Part shown: positions 33,800 to 40,078 of the stretch, piece after piece
Position numbering within the stretch: the first letter of the stretch is position 1
How the letters are laid out: each line of letters begins with the position of its first letter
Assembly (NCBI RefSeq): GCF_020103725.1
Contig: NZ_JAHXBG010000004.1
Coordinates: 248,001 to 312,000 of the forward strand
Direction: 5' to 3'
Source: Hyalangium gracile
GTDB taxonomy: Bacteria > Myxococcota > Myxococcia > Myxococcales > Myxococcaceae
Length of the DNA stretch: 64,000 bases
Translations under genes and position numbers: made by a program
The notes under the pieces: model-generated
Databases searched by the model: none
Told to the model about the DNA's origin: nothing
What the model saw: the letters and a program-made list of their open reading frames with translations, nothing else

Positions 33800-36700
33800 C
33801 TACGGCAGCTCGTCCGCGGAGCGGGTCATGAACTCCACCCGGCGGTTGGCGGCGCGGCCCTCGGGCGTGGCGTTGCTCTGCACCGGGCGACTCTCGCCGA
33901 AGCCGCGAGCCTCCAGCCGCTCGCGCGCCACGCCCTTCGAGGCCAGGTATTCGCGCACCGCCTCCGCGCGCCGCTGGGACAGGTTCAGGTTGTAGGCGTC
34001 CGGGCCCTTGTCATCCGTGTGGCCCTCGATGCTCACCGAGGTGAGGTTGGGGTGCTCCTGGAGGACGCGGGCCACCTGGTCCAGCAGCGGGTACGAGCGG
34101 GGCTGGATGACGGCCTTGTTGAACTCGAAGTGGATCGCCTCCTTGATGGAGATGTGGTCGTGCCGCAGGCCCACGAGCTGCTTCTCCGTCTCCGGGCAGC
34201 CCTCGTTGTCCTGGGGACCGGGCTGGCAGGGGCAGTTGTCCAGGTCGTCCGGCAGCGCGTCGCCATCCGTGTCCTTGGGGGGGCAGCCGTTCAGCTCGGG
34301 CAGGCCCGTCACGGTGGGGCAGGCGTCCTGCTCGTCCAGCAGGCCATCCTCGTCCGAGTCCTTGGGCGGGCAGCCCAGGTGGTCCGCGGGGCCGGGCTCG
34401 TTCGGGCACCGGTCGATCGTGTCCTGCAGGCCGTCGAGGTCCTGGTCCGGGCAGCCCTGGAACCTCGCCAGGCCCGGCTCGAGCGGGCACAGGTCCACCC
34501 GGTCCTCGAGGCCATCGCTGTCGGAGTCCTCCGGCGGGCAGCCCTTCTCGTCCACCCGGCCGCCCTGCCGGGGACAGGCGTCGTCTCCGTTGCTCACCCC
34601 ATCCTCGTCGTCGTCCAGGTGCGGGCACTCCTCCAGCGTGTGGCGGCCTCCCGCAATGCAGACGGGGGGTGTGCGGACATAGGCCATGCCGAGCAGGAGG
34701 CGGAAGTCCGGCGTCCCGGGCGCGGTGCCGTAGCCCAGCCCCGCCAGGCCATAGGCCTCGAGCGAGGCGCTCAGCGGGACTCGCAGCCCAGCCAGGGCCT
34801 CGAGGGAGGAGCCCTCGCGCCGCAAGGGCAAGGCGGCGATGACGGCCGTCTCCGCGCGCAGGCCCTCTCCGGTGGTGGCGAGCACGCCGCCCAGCCGCAG
34901 GGCATAGCCGAGCTCGTCCTGGACATTCGCGTCCGGGGTGAGGATGGTGCGAGGCCGCAGCAGCACGCCCGCATCCAGCGCGGCCCGCAGCAAGCCCTGG
35001 CGCCGGCCCACCATGATGCTGGGGATGGCGCGCAGCTCCCGGGCGAGCGCCTCGGCGCGGCCCAGCTCCGGGCCCGCCTGCACTCCCACCGAGAGGTCCA
35101 CGGGATCCTCATGGCGCTCGGAGAGCAGCTTCCAGCGCAGCGTTAGCATCGGCGTGCCCATGGCCGGGCCCCCCTCGGGGCTGATGAGCCCTCGCGCCGA
35201 CAGATCGTCCCCGCGCTGGCGGAGCAGCAGGGGCACCTGCACGCCGAACTCCAGCTTGTCCTGCACGCCATAGGCCGCGGAGACGTGCGCCGTGGCGCGG
35301 TAGCGGACCACCGCCCCCAGGTGCTGGCCGTCCTGGACGAGCACGAGCGGGTTGTTCTCGTAGTGGCCGGTGAGGGCGAGGCGGTAGGCGCCGTCCGGCA
35401 GCAGCTCGCCCGTGCCGAGCAGCAGGGAGCCCGTGGCGCTGGGGTTGAGGCTCAGCCGCTCCATCTCGAAGGCGGGGAGCCGCTGGGGCTGCGCGGAGGT
35501 GGTGGCGCCGAGCAGCGGCACGGCCAGCCCGAGCAGGCGCATCCGCGTGCGGGGGCTCCGGCGGGGGAGCCGACGGCTGCGGCCGAGCAGCGCCAGGACC
35601 AGGCCCAGCAGGCCTGTCACCAGCGGGTTGCCGCCCGCCGACGCGCAGCCGTGCCCGCCTCCCAGGACGGCGCGGTCCCAGTCGATGGGCAGCGGCACGA
35701 CCGTCCACGTGCCGCTGGCGGGAGTCGGGTCCACGTTGCCCAGGCTGTCGCGGGCGCGCACGAGGAGCTGGTGGGGACCCTCGGAGAGCCCGTGGAAGGC
35801 GGTGCTCTGCGAGCACTCCTCGAAGTCGCTGCCCTCCAGGCTGCACTCGAACGTCACCTGGGGCTTGGAGGCGGCGAACTCGAACCGGGCGTGGGTGTCC
35901 TTCGTCTCCTCGGGCGGGCCCGAGACGATGTACGTATCCGGCAGCAGGATGAGCAGCACCGTGATGGTGGACGTGCAGCTCGCCGTGTTCCCCGAGCCGT
36001 CCGTCGCCGTGTACGTCAGGACCGTGGTCCCCAGCGGGAAGCGCGTCTGCGAGGGATGGGACACCGGCACCGCCACGTCACACGTGTCCGTGGCGTGGGC
36101 CGCTCCCGGCGTGACGGTGGCCTCGCTCGCCTCGAGGACCTCCGTGACGATGGGGGCGGGGCAGGAGATGTGAGGCGCCTGCGTGTCGACCACCGTCACC
36201 GCCCGGTCCAGCTCCGCCGTCAGGCCCGAGGGATCCGACACGGAGTAGTGGACCGCGTAGCTTCCCGGCGCCGAGGTGTCGACCGAGCCGGAGCGCACGA
36301 TGTGGAACGTCAGGTCTCCCGCGCAGGCGTCGATGGCCGTGGCGCCGGGGTCGCTGTAGGGCGAGCCGCACTCCAGCGTCAGGTGGGCCGGGCCGTTGAT
36401 GGAGAGGGCTGGCGCGAGGGTGTCCGTCACCGTCACGGTGCGCCCGGTCGCCGCGGTCGCCAGGTTCCCGGAGGGATCCGTGACGCTGTAGCTCAGCGTG
36501 TAGGTGCCCTCCGTGCCGGGGTTCACCGCGCCCGTGACGAGGATTCGGGCGCTCACGTCGCCAGCGCAGGCATCCATCGCCTCGGCGCCCGGGTCCACAT
36601 AGTTGGAGCCACACTCGAAGCTCAGCGCCAGCGGCCCCTTGAGCGCGATGGACGGCGCCAGCGTGTCGCGGATGTCCACCACGCGGTGGACCGAGCTGCC

Positions 36701-39700
36701 ATGCCCGCTGGGGTCCGCCACGCTGTAGCCCAGCGTGTAGCTGCCAGGCACCCGGGGGTCCACCGCGCCGGTCCGGACGATGGAGCCCGTCAGGTCACCC
36801 GCGCACACGTCCTGGGCCGTGGCGCCGGGGTCATCATAAGGAGTGCCGCACTCGAGCTGCTGGAAGGCGGGGCCCTGGAGGACCAGGCTCGGAGGCAGCG
36901 TGTCCGTCACCGTCACGGTGCGAAGGGTGTCGGAGGTGCCCGTGTTCCCCGACGGATCCGTGGCGCTGTAGGGGATGCTGTAGCTGCCGGGCACGTCCGG
37001 GTTGGCCACCGCGCCAGGCACCGCCGGCAGTGCCCCCGCGCAGGCATCGCTCGCCGTGGCGCCCGGGTCCGTGTACGCGTCGTCGCCGCACTCCAGCCGC
37101 ACGTCCCGCGGGCCGGTGAGGGTGACGAGCGGAGGCCGCGTGTCGCGCACCGTGACGGTGCGCAGCAGGGAGAGCGAGTGGCCCGCACCGTCCGCCACGC
37201 TGTAGGTGAGCGGGTAGGCGCCCGGCGTCTGGATGTCGACCGAGCCGCTCGTCACGATGGAGTCCGCCAGGTCTCCCGCGCACATGTCCTGGGCCGTGGC
37301 GCCGGGATCGCTGTAGTGCGTGCCGCACTCGAGCTGCTGGAGGGCGGGGCCCAGGAGCACCAGGCTCGGAGGCAGCGTGTCGCTCACCGTCACGGTGCGC
37401 AGCAGGGAGATTTCGTGGCCCGCACCGTCCGCCACGCTGTAGGTGAGCGGGTAGGTGCCCGGCGTCTGGATGTCGACCGAGCCGCTCGTCATGATGGAGT
37501 CCGTCAGGTCTCCCGCGCACGTGTCCTGGGCCGTTGCGCCGGGGTCGCTATAAGGAGTGCCGCACTCGAGCTGCTGGAGGGCGGGGCCCAGGAGCACCAG
37601 GCTCGGAGACAGCGTGTCGGTCACCGTCACGGTGCGCAGCAGGGAGAGCGAGTGGCCCGCACCGTCCGCCACGCTGTAGGTGAGCGGGTAGGCGCCCGGC
37701 GTCTGGATGTCGACCGAGCCGCTCGTCATGATGGAGTCCGTCAGGTCTCCCGCGCACATGTCCTGGGCCGTGGCGCCGGGGTCGCTATAAGGAGTGCCGC
37801 ACTCGACACCCTCGGTGGCGGAGCCCAGGAGCACCAGGCTCGGGGGCAGCGTGTCGCTCACCGTCACGGTGCGCTCCTCGGCCGAGATGGCGGTGTTGCC
37901 CGATGGGTCCGTGGCGCTGTAGCGGAGGGTGTAGCTGCCCGGCACGTTCGGGTTGGCCCTGGAGCCCGGCACCGCGGGCAGCACGCCGGCGCACACGTCC
38001 AGCGCGGTGGCGCCCGGGTCCTCATACCCCGGCGCGCCACACTCCACCTGCAGGTGCAGCGGCCCGTTGAGGGTGATGGACGGCGGCAGCGTGTCCGCCA
38101 CCGTGACGAGGCGGTTCACCGGCTCGGCGTTGTGGCCCGCGGCATCCCTCACGGTGTAGCGGAGCGGGTAGCTGCCTGGCGCCAGGGGGTTCACCGTGCC
38201 GCTGCGGAGGAGCGCCTGTGTCAGGTCCCCGGAGCACAGATCCATCGCCGTGGCACCCGGATCGGTGTAGTGCGTGCCGCACTCCAGCGCGACCTGGGAC
38301 AGGCCGTTGAGGTTGATGCGCGGCGGCAACGTGTCGGACACGTCGACCGTCCGATGCTTGGGAGCAGGGCTGTTGCCGGCCGCGTCCGTCACCTTGTAGT
38401 GCAGCGGGTAGCGGGCAGGCACGCCCGCCCTCACCGAGCCGGTCCGCTCCACCTCGAGCGGGCCGTCGCAGAGATCGTTCGCGCTCGCACCTGGGTCGAA
38501 GTAGGCGCCGCCCTGGGTGCACTCCAGCGAGGGGGCCGTCGAGCCGTGGAGCACGAGCGTCGGCACCACGCGGTCCAGCACCCTCACCTCTCCCGTGCAC
38601 GAGCTGCTCAGCCCCTGCTGGTCCACGCACGTCAGGGTCACCGTGGACGTGCCAATCGGGTACGGGCTCGCGGGCGTCTGCGTGCAGCCCACCAGCAGTC
38701 CATCCGGGTCATAGGAGCCGTCGTCGATGCTGGCGGAGACGCCGCAGGTGGTCTCCGCGAACGTCGTCACGTCCTTGCAGAGCGCATGCGGCGGCTGGGG
38801 CGGAGGCGGCCGGTAGGGGAGCCTGCAGAACGAGGTGCACGCGCCAATCTCTCCGCGCGCATCGCCCGTCCGGCCGTTGTTGATGCCCAGGTCACACTCC
38901 TCGCCCTGGCTCGCGTCCACGAAGCCGTCGCCGCACCAGTGGAGGTGGCACGAGAAGGAGCAGGTGCTCCCCGGCTGCTGGCCCCGCACCGCCGGCATGC
39001 CGTTGAGGGCATCGCCCAGATCGCACGTCTCGTCCGGCGACGTCTCCGGGAGTCCACAGCCGGCGCTCTGCGGCTCGGCGCCTCGCACGAGCAGGTACGG
39101 CGTGCCCACGAAGGGCGTCTCCTGCTCCGGCTCGTAGAGGAAGTCCACGTAGGTCCGCTGCCCGGGGATGGGCGTCGCGGTGCTGCTCATCGCGATCGCC
39201 GCGAACGAGAAGTCGTGGTCCGGGTACCGGGTGAACACCGAGCGCGCCGCGCACCCGTTGCCCGTGAGCAGCCCGTCCCACAGGTCGCGAGAGATGAGGT
39301 CGTTCCACATCCCAAACATGTGGCCGCTGTCGGCGCAGCCCGGCACGCCCTGCACCTCGAAGGTGCCGAAGGGCTCCAGCAGCGTCACGGGCGTGGGCGT
39401 CGGCGCGTGCTGGTAGGCGCAGCCCAGCGCGATGTACATGCCGGTCCGCTTCTGCACGGAGTTGAGCACGTACCGGATGCCGTTCTCCACCAGCTCGGGC
39501 GTCTCGTTGTTCGTCGGGTCCGTGGCGAAGAGGGCGACGTCCCCGTCGACGATGATGCCCCACTGCTTGCGGCTCTCGACCGCGGCCTGGAAGGCGGCCG
39601 GGCCGCTCTGGCACGCGGCGTCGCCGATGATGAGGGCGCGGTACTCCATGAACTGCTGGGCAGTCATGTCCTTCCACTGCTCCGGCGTCACCACGTCGAT

Positions 39701-39967
39701 CTGGGTGGAGGGGCTCGCGGAGGCCACCGCCTGGGCCTCGCGGCTGGCGAGCCCGCCGGCCACGCTGCTGCCCAGGATGAGCACCTTGTTGGTGCTGTTG
39801 GCGTTATCGAGGGCGCTGCTCACGGTCTCGAGAGCCGGAGCGGGAGCGGACGCCCCCTGCTCCTGATTACAGGCGCTGGTCGCCAGGGTGACGACCACGA
39901 GTGAGGCTCCCCAGACACCATGGCTGACCCAGCGGCGGTGATTGTCGGTGAGAGGCGCTGTCTTCAT
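33800..39967 (-). CDS. giant fusion: Ig-like repeat lipoprotein with internal MYXO-CTERM tail joined to an OmpA-family protein
   Basis: 2055 aa. The N-terminus has a lipoprotein signal peptide (VVTLATSAC), a flavodoxin-like domain (~45-330) and a Cys-rich section with CGDGFVDASQGEECD. A HYR-like module and ten Ig-like DUF5011-type repeats of ~79 residues (each with LECGxxYxDPGATAxD) run to a final HYR module. Near residue 1450 comes GGHGCASAGG, a hydrophobic stretch and arginines, which is exactly a MYXO-CTERM sorting tail. Thirteen residues later is MRLLGLAVPLLGATTSAQP, a signal peptide (ATG at 35542). Then come a beta-barrel-like region, thrombospondin type 3 Ca-binding repeats and a C-terminal OmpA peptidoglycan-binding domain (FEFNKAVIQP, EGHTDDKG, NLSQRRAEAVR). 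No stop separates the parts. The start has AGAGGAGG directly upstream of the ATG. Two products or one are both possible. Confidence 0.8.
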   Translation of the reverse strand: MKTAPLTDNHRRWVSHGVWGASLVVVTLATSACNQEQGASAPAPALETVSSALDNANSTNKVLILGSSVAGGLASREAQAVASASPSTQIDVVTPEQWKDMTAQQFMEYRALIIGDAACQSGPAAFQAAVESRKQWGIIVDGDVALFATDPTNNETPELVENGIRYVLNSVQKRTGMYIALGCAYQHAPTPTPVTLLEPFGTFEVQGVPGCADSGHMFGMWNDLISRDLWDGLLTGNGCAARSVFTRYPDHDFSFAAIAMSSTATPIPGQRTYVDFLYEPEQETPFVGTPYLLVRGAEPQSAGCGLPETSPDETCDLGDALNGMPAVRGQQPGSTCSFSCHLHWCGDGFVDASQGEECDLGINNGRTGDARGEIGACTSFCRLPYRPPPPQPPHALCKDVTTFAETTCGVSASIDDGSYDPDGLLVGCTQTPASPYPIGTSTVTLTCVDQQGLSSSCTGEVRVLDRVVPTLVLHGSTAPSLECTQGGAYFDPGASANDLCDGPLEVERTGSVRAGVPARYPLHYKVTDAAGNSPAPKHRTVDVSDTLPPRINLNGLSQVALECGTHYTDPGATAMDLCSGDLTQALLRSGTVNPLAPGSYPLRYTVRDAAGHNAEPVNRLVTVADTLPPSITLNGPLHLQVECGAPGYEDPGATALDVCAGVLPAVPGSRANPNVPGSYTLRYSATDPSGNTAISAEERTVTVSDTLPPSLVLLGSATEGVECGTPYSDPGATAQDMCAGDLTDSIMTSGSVDIQTPGAYPLTYSVADGAGHSLSLLRTVTVTDTLSPSLVLLGPALQQLECGTPYSDPGATAQDTCAGDLTDSIMTSGSVDIQTPGTYPLTYSVADGAGHEISLLRTVTVSDTLPPSLVLLGPALQQLECGTHYSDPGATAQDMCAGDLADSIVTSGSVDIQTPGAYPLTYSVADGAGHSLSLLRTVTVRDTRPPLVTLTGPRDVRLECGDDAYTDPGATASDACAGALPAVPGAVANPDVPGSYSIPYSATDPSGNTGTSDTLRTVTVTDTLPPSLVLQGPAFQQLECGTPYDDPGATAQDVCAGDLTGSIVRTGAVDPRVPGSYTLGYSVADPSGHGSSVHRVVDIRDTLAPSIALKGPLALSFECGSNYVDPGAEAMDACAGDVSARILVTGAVNPGTEGTYTLSYSVTDPSGNLATAATGRTVTVTDTLAPALSINGPAHLTLECGSPYSDPGATAIDACAGDLTFHIVRSGSVDTSAPGSYAVHYSVSDPSGLTAELDRAVTVVDTQAPHISCPAPIVTEVLEASEATVTPGAAHATDTCDVAVPVSHPSQTRFPLGTTVLTYTATDGSGNTASCTSTITVLLILLPDTYIVSGPPEETKDTHARFEFAASKPQVTFECSLEGSDFEECSQSTAFHGLSEGPHQLLVRARDSLGNVDPTPASGTWTVVPLPIDWDRAVLGGGHGCASAGGNPLVTGLLGLVLALLGRSRRLPRRSPRTRMRLLGLAVPLLGATTSAQPQRLPAFEMERLSLNPSATGSLLLGTGELLPDGAYRLALTGHYENNPLVLVQDGQHLGAVVRYRATAHVSAAYGVQDKLEFGVQVPLLLRQRGDDLSARGLISPEGGPAMGTPMLTLRWKLLSERHEDPVDLSVGVQAGPELGRAEALARELRAIPSIMVGRRQGLLRAALDAGVLLRPRTILTPDANVQDELGYALRLGGVLATTGEGLRAETAVIAALPLRREGSSLEALAGLRVPLSASLEAYGLAGLGYGTAPGTPDFRLLLGMAYVRTPPVCIAGGRHTLEECPHLDDDEDGVSNGDDACPRQGGRVDEKGCPPEDSDSDGLEDRVDLCPLEPGLARFQGCPDQDLDGLQDTIDRCPNEPGPADHLGCPPKDSDEDGLLDEQDACPTVTGLPELNGCPPKDTDGDALPDDLDNCPCQPGPQDNEGCPETEKQLVGLRHDHISIKEAIHFEFNKAVIQPRSYPLLDQVARVLQEHPNLTSVSIEGHTDDKGPDAYNLNLSQRRAEAVREYLASKGVARERLEARGFGESRPVQSNATPEGRAANRRVEFMTRSADELP
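34170..34640 (-). repeat. thrombospondin type 3 repeat region (coding)
   Basis: A run of DxDxDGxxDxxDxCP-type repeats (for example DSDSDGLEDRVDLCP, DQDLDGLQDTIDRCP, DSDEDGLLDEQDACP) linking the barrel-like region to the OmpA domain. Such repeats bind calcium and act as stiff spacers. Confidence 0.85.
37140..37850 (-). repeat. three nearly identical 237-bp tandem repeats within the Ig-like region
   Basis: Ig-like repeats 4, 5 and 6 are almost identical at DNA level with a 237-bp (79-codon) period; for instance tgtaggtgagcggg recurs at 37201, 37438 and 37675. The other repeats are much more diverged, so these three expanded recently and copy number may vary between strains. Confidence 0.85.
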
Positions 39968-39981
39968 GCCTCCTCTTAAGA

Positions 39982-39996
39982 GCAACACCGGTGCCG
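39982..39996 (-). promoter_or_regulatory. sigma-54 promoter of the giant fusion gene
   Basis: Minus-strand GGCACCGGTGTTGC (39995-39982), GG-N10-GC. Predicted start about 39970, three bases before the ATG. The spacing to the start codon is nearly the same as at the pseudo-receiver gene. Confidence 0.78.
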
Positions 39997-40078
39997 AGCC
40001 CTGGCACCCGGCCACCCCCCGGAATCCCGTCACTTACGTGCGAGGGGGGCGGCATTCCGCAGCGGGGAGCGCGTGCGC

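Follow-up and report, generated by a model that had tools for sequence, protein, structure and literature searches.

A single gene in the 64,000-nt stretch of DNA from the soil myxobacterium Hyalangium gracile analyzed here (the window; its genome is labeled G000) encodes a lipoprotein-like adhesin followed, in the same reading frame, by a TraB-like outer membrane protein. Translation of the frame confirms that the two are joined, and the joining recurs in relatives. We posit that the product is a secreted polyprotein that forms a hairpin in the inner membrane, from which two cuts, one by myxosortase and one by signal peptidase I, release a TraA-like and a TraB-like protein as a 1:1 pair, an interpretation that we regard as probable.

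The open reading frame (ORF) occupies positions 33800-40033 of the reverse strand and is free of stop codons over 2077 codons from a GTG at 40033, an alternative start, or 2055 codons from the ATG at 39967, which in the ORF list and translation delimits the whole fused ORF as 33800-39967. The GC content at third codon positions (GC3) is 0.87-0.99 along the frame in 100-codon steps and 0.98 in the 150 nt spanning the junction. From ATG 39967 the encoded protein consists of a signal peptide, an N-terminal domain with a Cys-rich stretch, an immunoglobulin-like (Ig-like)/HYR stalk, a MYXO-CTERM-like tail, a second signal peptide, a β-barrel, thrombospondin type 3 (TSP3) repeats, and an OmpA domain.

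The two parts meet at the MYXO-CTERM-like tail (35543-35650, reverse strand), which was delimited from its sequence, NCBIfam matches, and conservation in 18 fused proteins. In translation, the tail comprises a Gly-Cys pair (35650-35645, with the Cys codon at 35645-35647), a hydrophobic stretch (35582-35626), and a basic loop (35543-35581). The features that characterize MYXO-CTERM sequences, a Cys motif, a transmembrane helix, and an Arg-rich end, are all recognizable by eye; the tail is, however, internal rather than C-terminal, with 580 codons following the loop. Thirteen residues (R...R) without a stop separate its hydrophobic stretch from the ATG at 35542, where a putative second signal peptide begins (35492-35542; MRLLGLAVPLLGATTSA|Q, 17 residues if begun at this ATG), identified by eye and from conservation of the Gln. 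The initial annotation had described precisely this single stop-free frame, tail, and 13-residue spacing, and the translation bears out its coordinates. Across 18 diverse fused proteins, 17 alignment columns are invariant, including the tail Cys, one Arg of the loop, and the +1 Gln of the second signal-peptide site. In each of the 64 fused genes that we examined, a pattern search covering about 36 residues before the barrel identified an [A/G]|Q site that follows the second hydrophobic stretch. The tail of a fused relative (L056) attains the curated MYXO-CTERM cut-off (20 of 20 bits). The myxosortase MrtX is encoded in G000 (443 bits) and was matched in 28 of the 30 genomes searched, above the cut-off in 24.

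The orthologue in a genus mate (G006) is also fused, as a 2180-codon frame with 78% identity over the 580-aa part, and G000 itself encodes a fused paralogue (L050); fused genes are present in other genera as well. Thirteen fetched loci besides the window have a MYXO-CTERM-like tail in frame with a signal peptide and barrel. When 195 genomes of the phylum were searched with two profiles, the matches listed contained fused genes of two types, and we examined the junctions of 130 loci, with counts reconciled by eye from two pattern-based readings. In the window type, 20 loci are fused, 25 are split by an in-frame TGA, 15 are split in different frames, and 24 lack such a tail upstream. The second type comprises 44 fused genes, one split locus (L149, the true TraAB of G000), and one locus without the tail (L061), and among the matches listed no stop was found in any of the second type that extends as far as the tail. 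Because fused genes served to build the profiles and the loci are the best matches, these proportions should not be read as frequencies in the population. The initial annotation proposed that the two proteins would normally be separate, and 40 of the 60 tail-bearing window-type loci are indeed separate genes, among them those with the intervening stop that it had suggested seeking in relatives. It also named uniformly separate orthologues as grounds for rejecting the fusion; the G006 orthologue and other relatives are fused. One further locus (L042) encodes two barrels, neither with a tail.

Second-type genes can be large. Their fused frames span 1654-3517 codons in 27 of 27 g23 genomes among the matches listed, and one subgroup (L064, L167, L168, and L169) consists of giant frames of about 5100-5200 codons. 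In G153, the one genome in which the ftsAZ position was inspected, a 2699-codon second-type fused adhesin/TraB-like gene (L177:8400-16496, reverse strand) lies between FtsZ and FtsA.

Our phylogenetic analysis, restricted to the barrel part (105 rows, including 20 of the 44 second-type genes), places the second type in a single clade (99/94). Within the window type, the fused state requires 10 changes, 8 of which are forced by well-supported branches. One 50-row clade contains six fused branches: G028, G118, G133, g12 (3 genomes), g8 (3), and g23 (4). When the DNA of these branches is aligned with that of their split sisters, the implied deletions measure 57, 60, 50, 26 (44 in G128), 74, and 53-59 nt; each takes out the stop and leaves an open frame, and their lengths agree with the offset between the frames in the sisters. 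Because the split genes share spacer sequence, we infer that the change was a deletion and not an insertion. The presumed ancestral downstream start is lost in five of the six branches; in g12, two of the three genomes retain it. The window's own small clade gives no direction of change because its split G020 row is placed without branch support. Four-base ATGA or GTGA overlaps occur in the out-of-frame split pairs L143, L164, L165, L166, and L162, which are genes other than traAB; the traA and traB ORFs themselves are reported to overlap by four bases (PMC3325183; this and the other papers cited below are used from excerpts).

Substitutions in the fused loops fall mostly at third codon positions (73/34/172 changes at positions 1/2/3 over 651 codons in overlapping pairs), a coding pattern; the spacers of split genes have 61/45/55 changes at the corresponding triplet positions (592 triplets), with no third-position excess.

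The second half of the window protein, a predicted mature protein of 563 aa (33803-35491), has the outer membrane exchange protein TraB (NF033763) as its best NCBIfam family, with 249 bits, or 268 bits on the C-terminal part of 580 aa, relative to a cut-off of 700. The order typical of TraB, signal peptide, outer membrane barrel, TSP3, and OmpA, is present (the signal peptide by eye). AlphaFold predicts a 12-stranded barrel followed by an OmpA domain (mean predicted local distance difference test score, pLDDT, of 80.5). The predicted barrel (34673-35386) has its strands between model residues 99 and 336; the TSP3 repeats (PF02412, 5 stretches) have approximate limits of 34181-34618; and the peptidoglycan-binding OmpA domain (33842-34129) matches PF00691 with 89-91 bits, above the gathering score of 27.2. 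In Foldseek searches the OmpA domain matches solved OmpA domains (5wtp and 5u1h), and the barrel, with an identity of 11-15%, matches the amyloid exporter FapF and a COG4313 channel. Based on this predicted resemblance, the barrel may have a role beyond that of an anchor. The gene is not TraB itself, a candidate that we ruled out by score: the true TraB of G000, at G000:C10, scores 932 bits, and the MYXO-CTERM tail before it (L149) is in another frame.

The N-terminal half begins with a signal peptide (39872-39967) that, read by eye, has a putative lipobox (ATSA|C, Cys33 from the ATG). The N-terminal domain with its Cys-rich stretch (38651-39871) has no assigned fold: AlphaFold models the N-terminal part with a mean pLDDT of 49 and moderate confidence only for approximately residues 21-178, Foldseek found no match to this domain in the PDB at E <= 0.001 (best E 0.12), and a match to PF12242 is below the cut-off. 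No PA14-like domain or TraA-type Cys repeats are listed among the matches in profile scans of the window protein. The stalk (approximately 35957-38600) was delimited by family search and consists of Ig-like sequence (PF16403, 10 stretches) and an HYR repeat. The N-terminal domain belongs to a large paralogue family, with 15 matches in G000 and 14 in G006. Of nine such frames examined in G000, six share an ending that is not MYXO-CTERM, one (L202) ends in a variant of this sequence, and two are cut short by the end of their contig; the tail is therefore not a common property of the other N-domain paralogues of G000, and those with the shared ending or its variant may use a different anchor. Two relatives in G020, L207 and L065, do carry the MYXO-CTERM tail. 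In L207, a further split pair outside the 130 loci counted, the adhesin belongs to the window's N-domain family, ends in the tail and a TAG, and is followed by a TraB-like gene.

The polyprotein that we propose would be processed as follows. The first signal peptide would route the N-terminal adhesin, a putative lipoprotein predicted to be lipidated, through Sec; the MYXO-CTERM helix would halt transfer, leaving the basic loop in the cytoplasm, and the next hydrophobic stretch would restart it as an internal signal peptide. The Arg-rich end is cytoplasmic in the MYXO-CTERM model (PMC11980579); since the n-region of an internal signal peptide must lie on that same side, a single loop would serve the two signals and the two cleavage sites would face the periplasm. 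The chain would thereby form a two-helix inner-membrane hairpin. MrtX, which cleaves TraA (PMC11980579), would cut at the tail Cys and free the adhesin for the cell surface, and signal peptidase I would cut at the small-residue/Gln site, allowing the TraB-like barrel to reach the outer membrane and peptidoglycan. The predicted end products are TraA-like and TraB-like partners in 1:1 amounts; TraA:TraB complexes are themselves 1:1 (PMC12045341), a ratio that a polyprotein would fix.

Several observations weigh against this interpretation. The window tail does not reach the curated MYXO-CTERM cut-offs (11.9 of 20 bits for TIGR03901 and 13.9 of 15.85 for TIGR03382), and when a longer segment was searched with TIGR03901 at E <= 1 the window was the only one of seven members without a match. 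The AlphaFold model of the hairpin has low confidence, with 10-residue block means of 26-55 over model residues 1-60. The codon-position figure is derived from overlapping pairs; with one pair per set it is only 17/16/31. The window copy retains an internal ATG at -17, and the predominance of separate genes among tail-bearing window-type loci indicates that fusion is not required.

The retained ATG raises the question of whether ribosomes also initiate at 35542, such that one mRNA gives two proteins and the fused frame is incidental. Split relatives must begin a second gene at this place, and a possible internal start, considered here as ATG, GTG, or TTG at -17 or earlier followed by K or R, is present in 14 of the 64 fused genes. 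Because the window gene is one of these 14, we entertain internal initiation for this copy; however, we consider it unlikely given that 50 of the 64 fused genes have no such start with a basic n-region, that 11 of the 64 have no ATG, GTG, or TTG anywhere in the loop and n-region, and that the window's ATG is missing from its closest orthologue (G006). The loss of the ancestral start in most of the fusion branches argues in the same direction, as does the sequence preceding the window ATG, in which only a weak GGAG is visible by eye, at a distance of 13 nt.

It is comparably doubtful, in our estimation, that signal peptidase alone cuts, with the adhesin keeping its tail, or that no cut occurs and the whole chain is anchored to the cell wall through OmpA. 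The subthreshold score of the window tail is compatible with these outcomes, and the fused state by itself does not prove cleavage; however, the Cys and the second site are retained across fused genes, MrtX is present, sorting tags are described as functional in mid-protein position (PMC11980579), and an uncut hairpin would be expected to keep the barrel attached to the inner membrane. The initial annotation had offered both cleavage into two products and a single chain with replaced sorting; conservation of the Cys, basic loop, and small-residue/Gln site favors the former and disfavors the latter. In many relatives a stop or a change of frame interrupts the junction, which could suggest a stop codon lost through sequencing or assembly error, but we regard this as highly improbable: the fusion is present in other genomes and in a paralogue, in several cases through in-frame deletions of tens of nucleotides, and GC3 is intact. 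The fused orthologue, fused paralogue, and in-frame deletions in relatives led us to reject an artefact. Given that the joining arose several times in relatives, it looks like a genuine strategy rather than an error.

The window architecture is a recurrent variant of one reported for a single gene, MXAN_5598. Guo et al. (2025) describe the MXAN_5598 protein as having an internal MYXO-CTERM, as perhaps a two-gene fusion that is TraA-plus-TraB-like, and as probably processed to release its N-terminal part; they call internal MYXO-CTERM motifs rare and place the gene between FtsA and FtsZ (PMC11980579). The protein is also among the vesicle proteins of Myxococcus xanthus (PMC4158809). Like the window gene, MXAN_5598 combines a large adhesin region, an internal MYXO-CTERM, a barrel, and OmpA in one ORF; it differs in its locus, and the window barrel belongs to another clade. 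The second type includes the MXAN_5598-type gene, with the fused frame of G153 at the same FtsA/FtsZ position. TraA/TraB resembles the window gene in pairing a MYXO-CTERM adhesin with a following barrel-TSP3-OmpA protein, but it is encoded by two genes, the window part reaches only 268 of the 700 bits set for TraB, and no TraA-type match is listed for the N-terminal part. The NCBIfam model NF033207 (midcut-by-XrtH), judged from its name, likewise describes a mid-protein sorting signal; however, it belongs to an exosortase system, and it matched one of seven members at E=0.5. The FbcH cytochrome b/c1 precursor of Bradyrhizobium is a single bacterial precursor that signal peptidase cuts at an internal signal sequence; unlike the product proposed here, it has no sortase-type second cut and belongs to an inner-membrane complex. 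To our knowledge, hardly any bacterial polyproteins have been described in which cleavage by two membrane proteases yields products sorted to two different sites in the envelope. No mention of a second signal peptide or of repeated fusion was found in the excerpts of the MYXO-CTERM, MXAN_5598, and TraA/TraB-fusion literature that we consulted, the literature search returned no paper combining bacterial polyprotein, internal signal peptide, signal peptidase, and outer membrane, and the word "midcut" was not found in the literature matches listed.

The relationship to TraA/TraB and the widespread architecture go beyond the initial annotation. On balance, we lean toward the broader hypothesis that overlapping receptor/partner gene pairs repeatedly became dual-protease polyproteins in myxobacteria, with a stop-transfer sorting tag and a restart signal peptide sharing one basic loop and yielding two differently sorted surface proteins at a fixed 1:1 ratio; these would form a class of TraAB-like pairs, one of them located between ftsA and ftsZ. 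The recurrence of fusion at the same junction, driven by deletion, suggests that selection favors making receptor and partner in equal amounts or delivering them jointly. The relatives provide a natural test series of overlapping genes, genes separated by an in-frame stop, fused genes with a start, and fused genes without one. Our findings suggest that surveys for C-terminal tags can miss MYXO-CTERM substrates with an internal tag and that, beyond the kin-recognition pair, there are further TraAB-like pairs.

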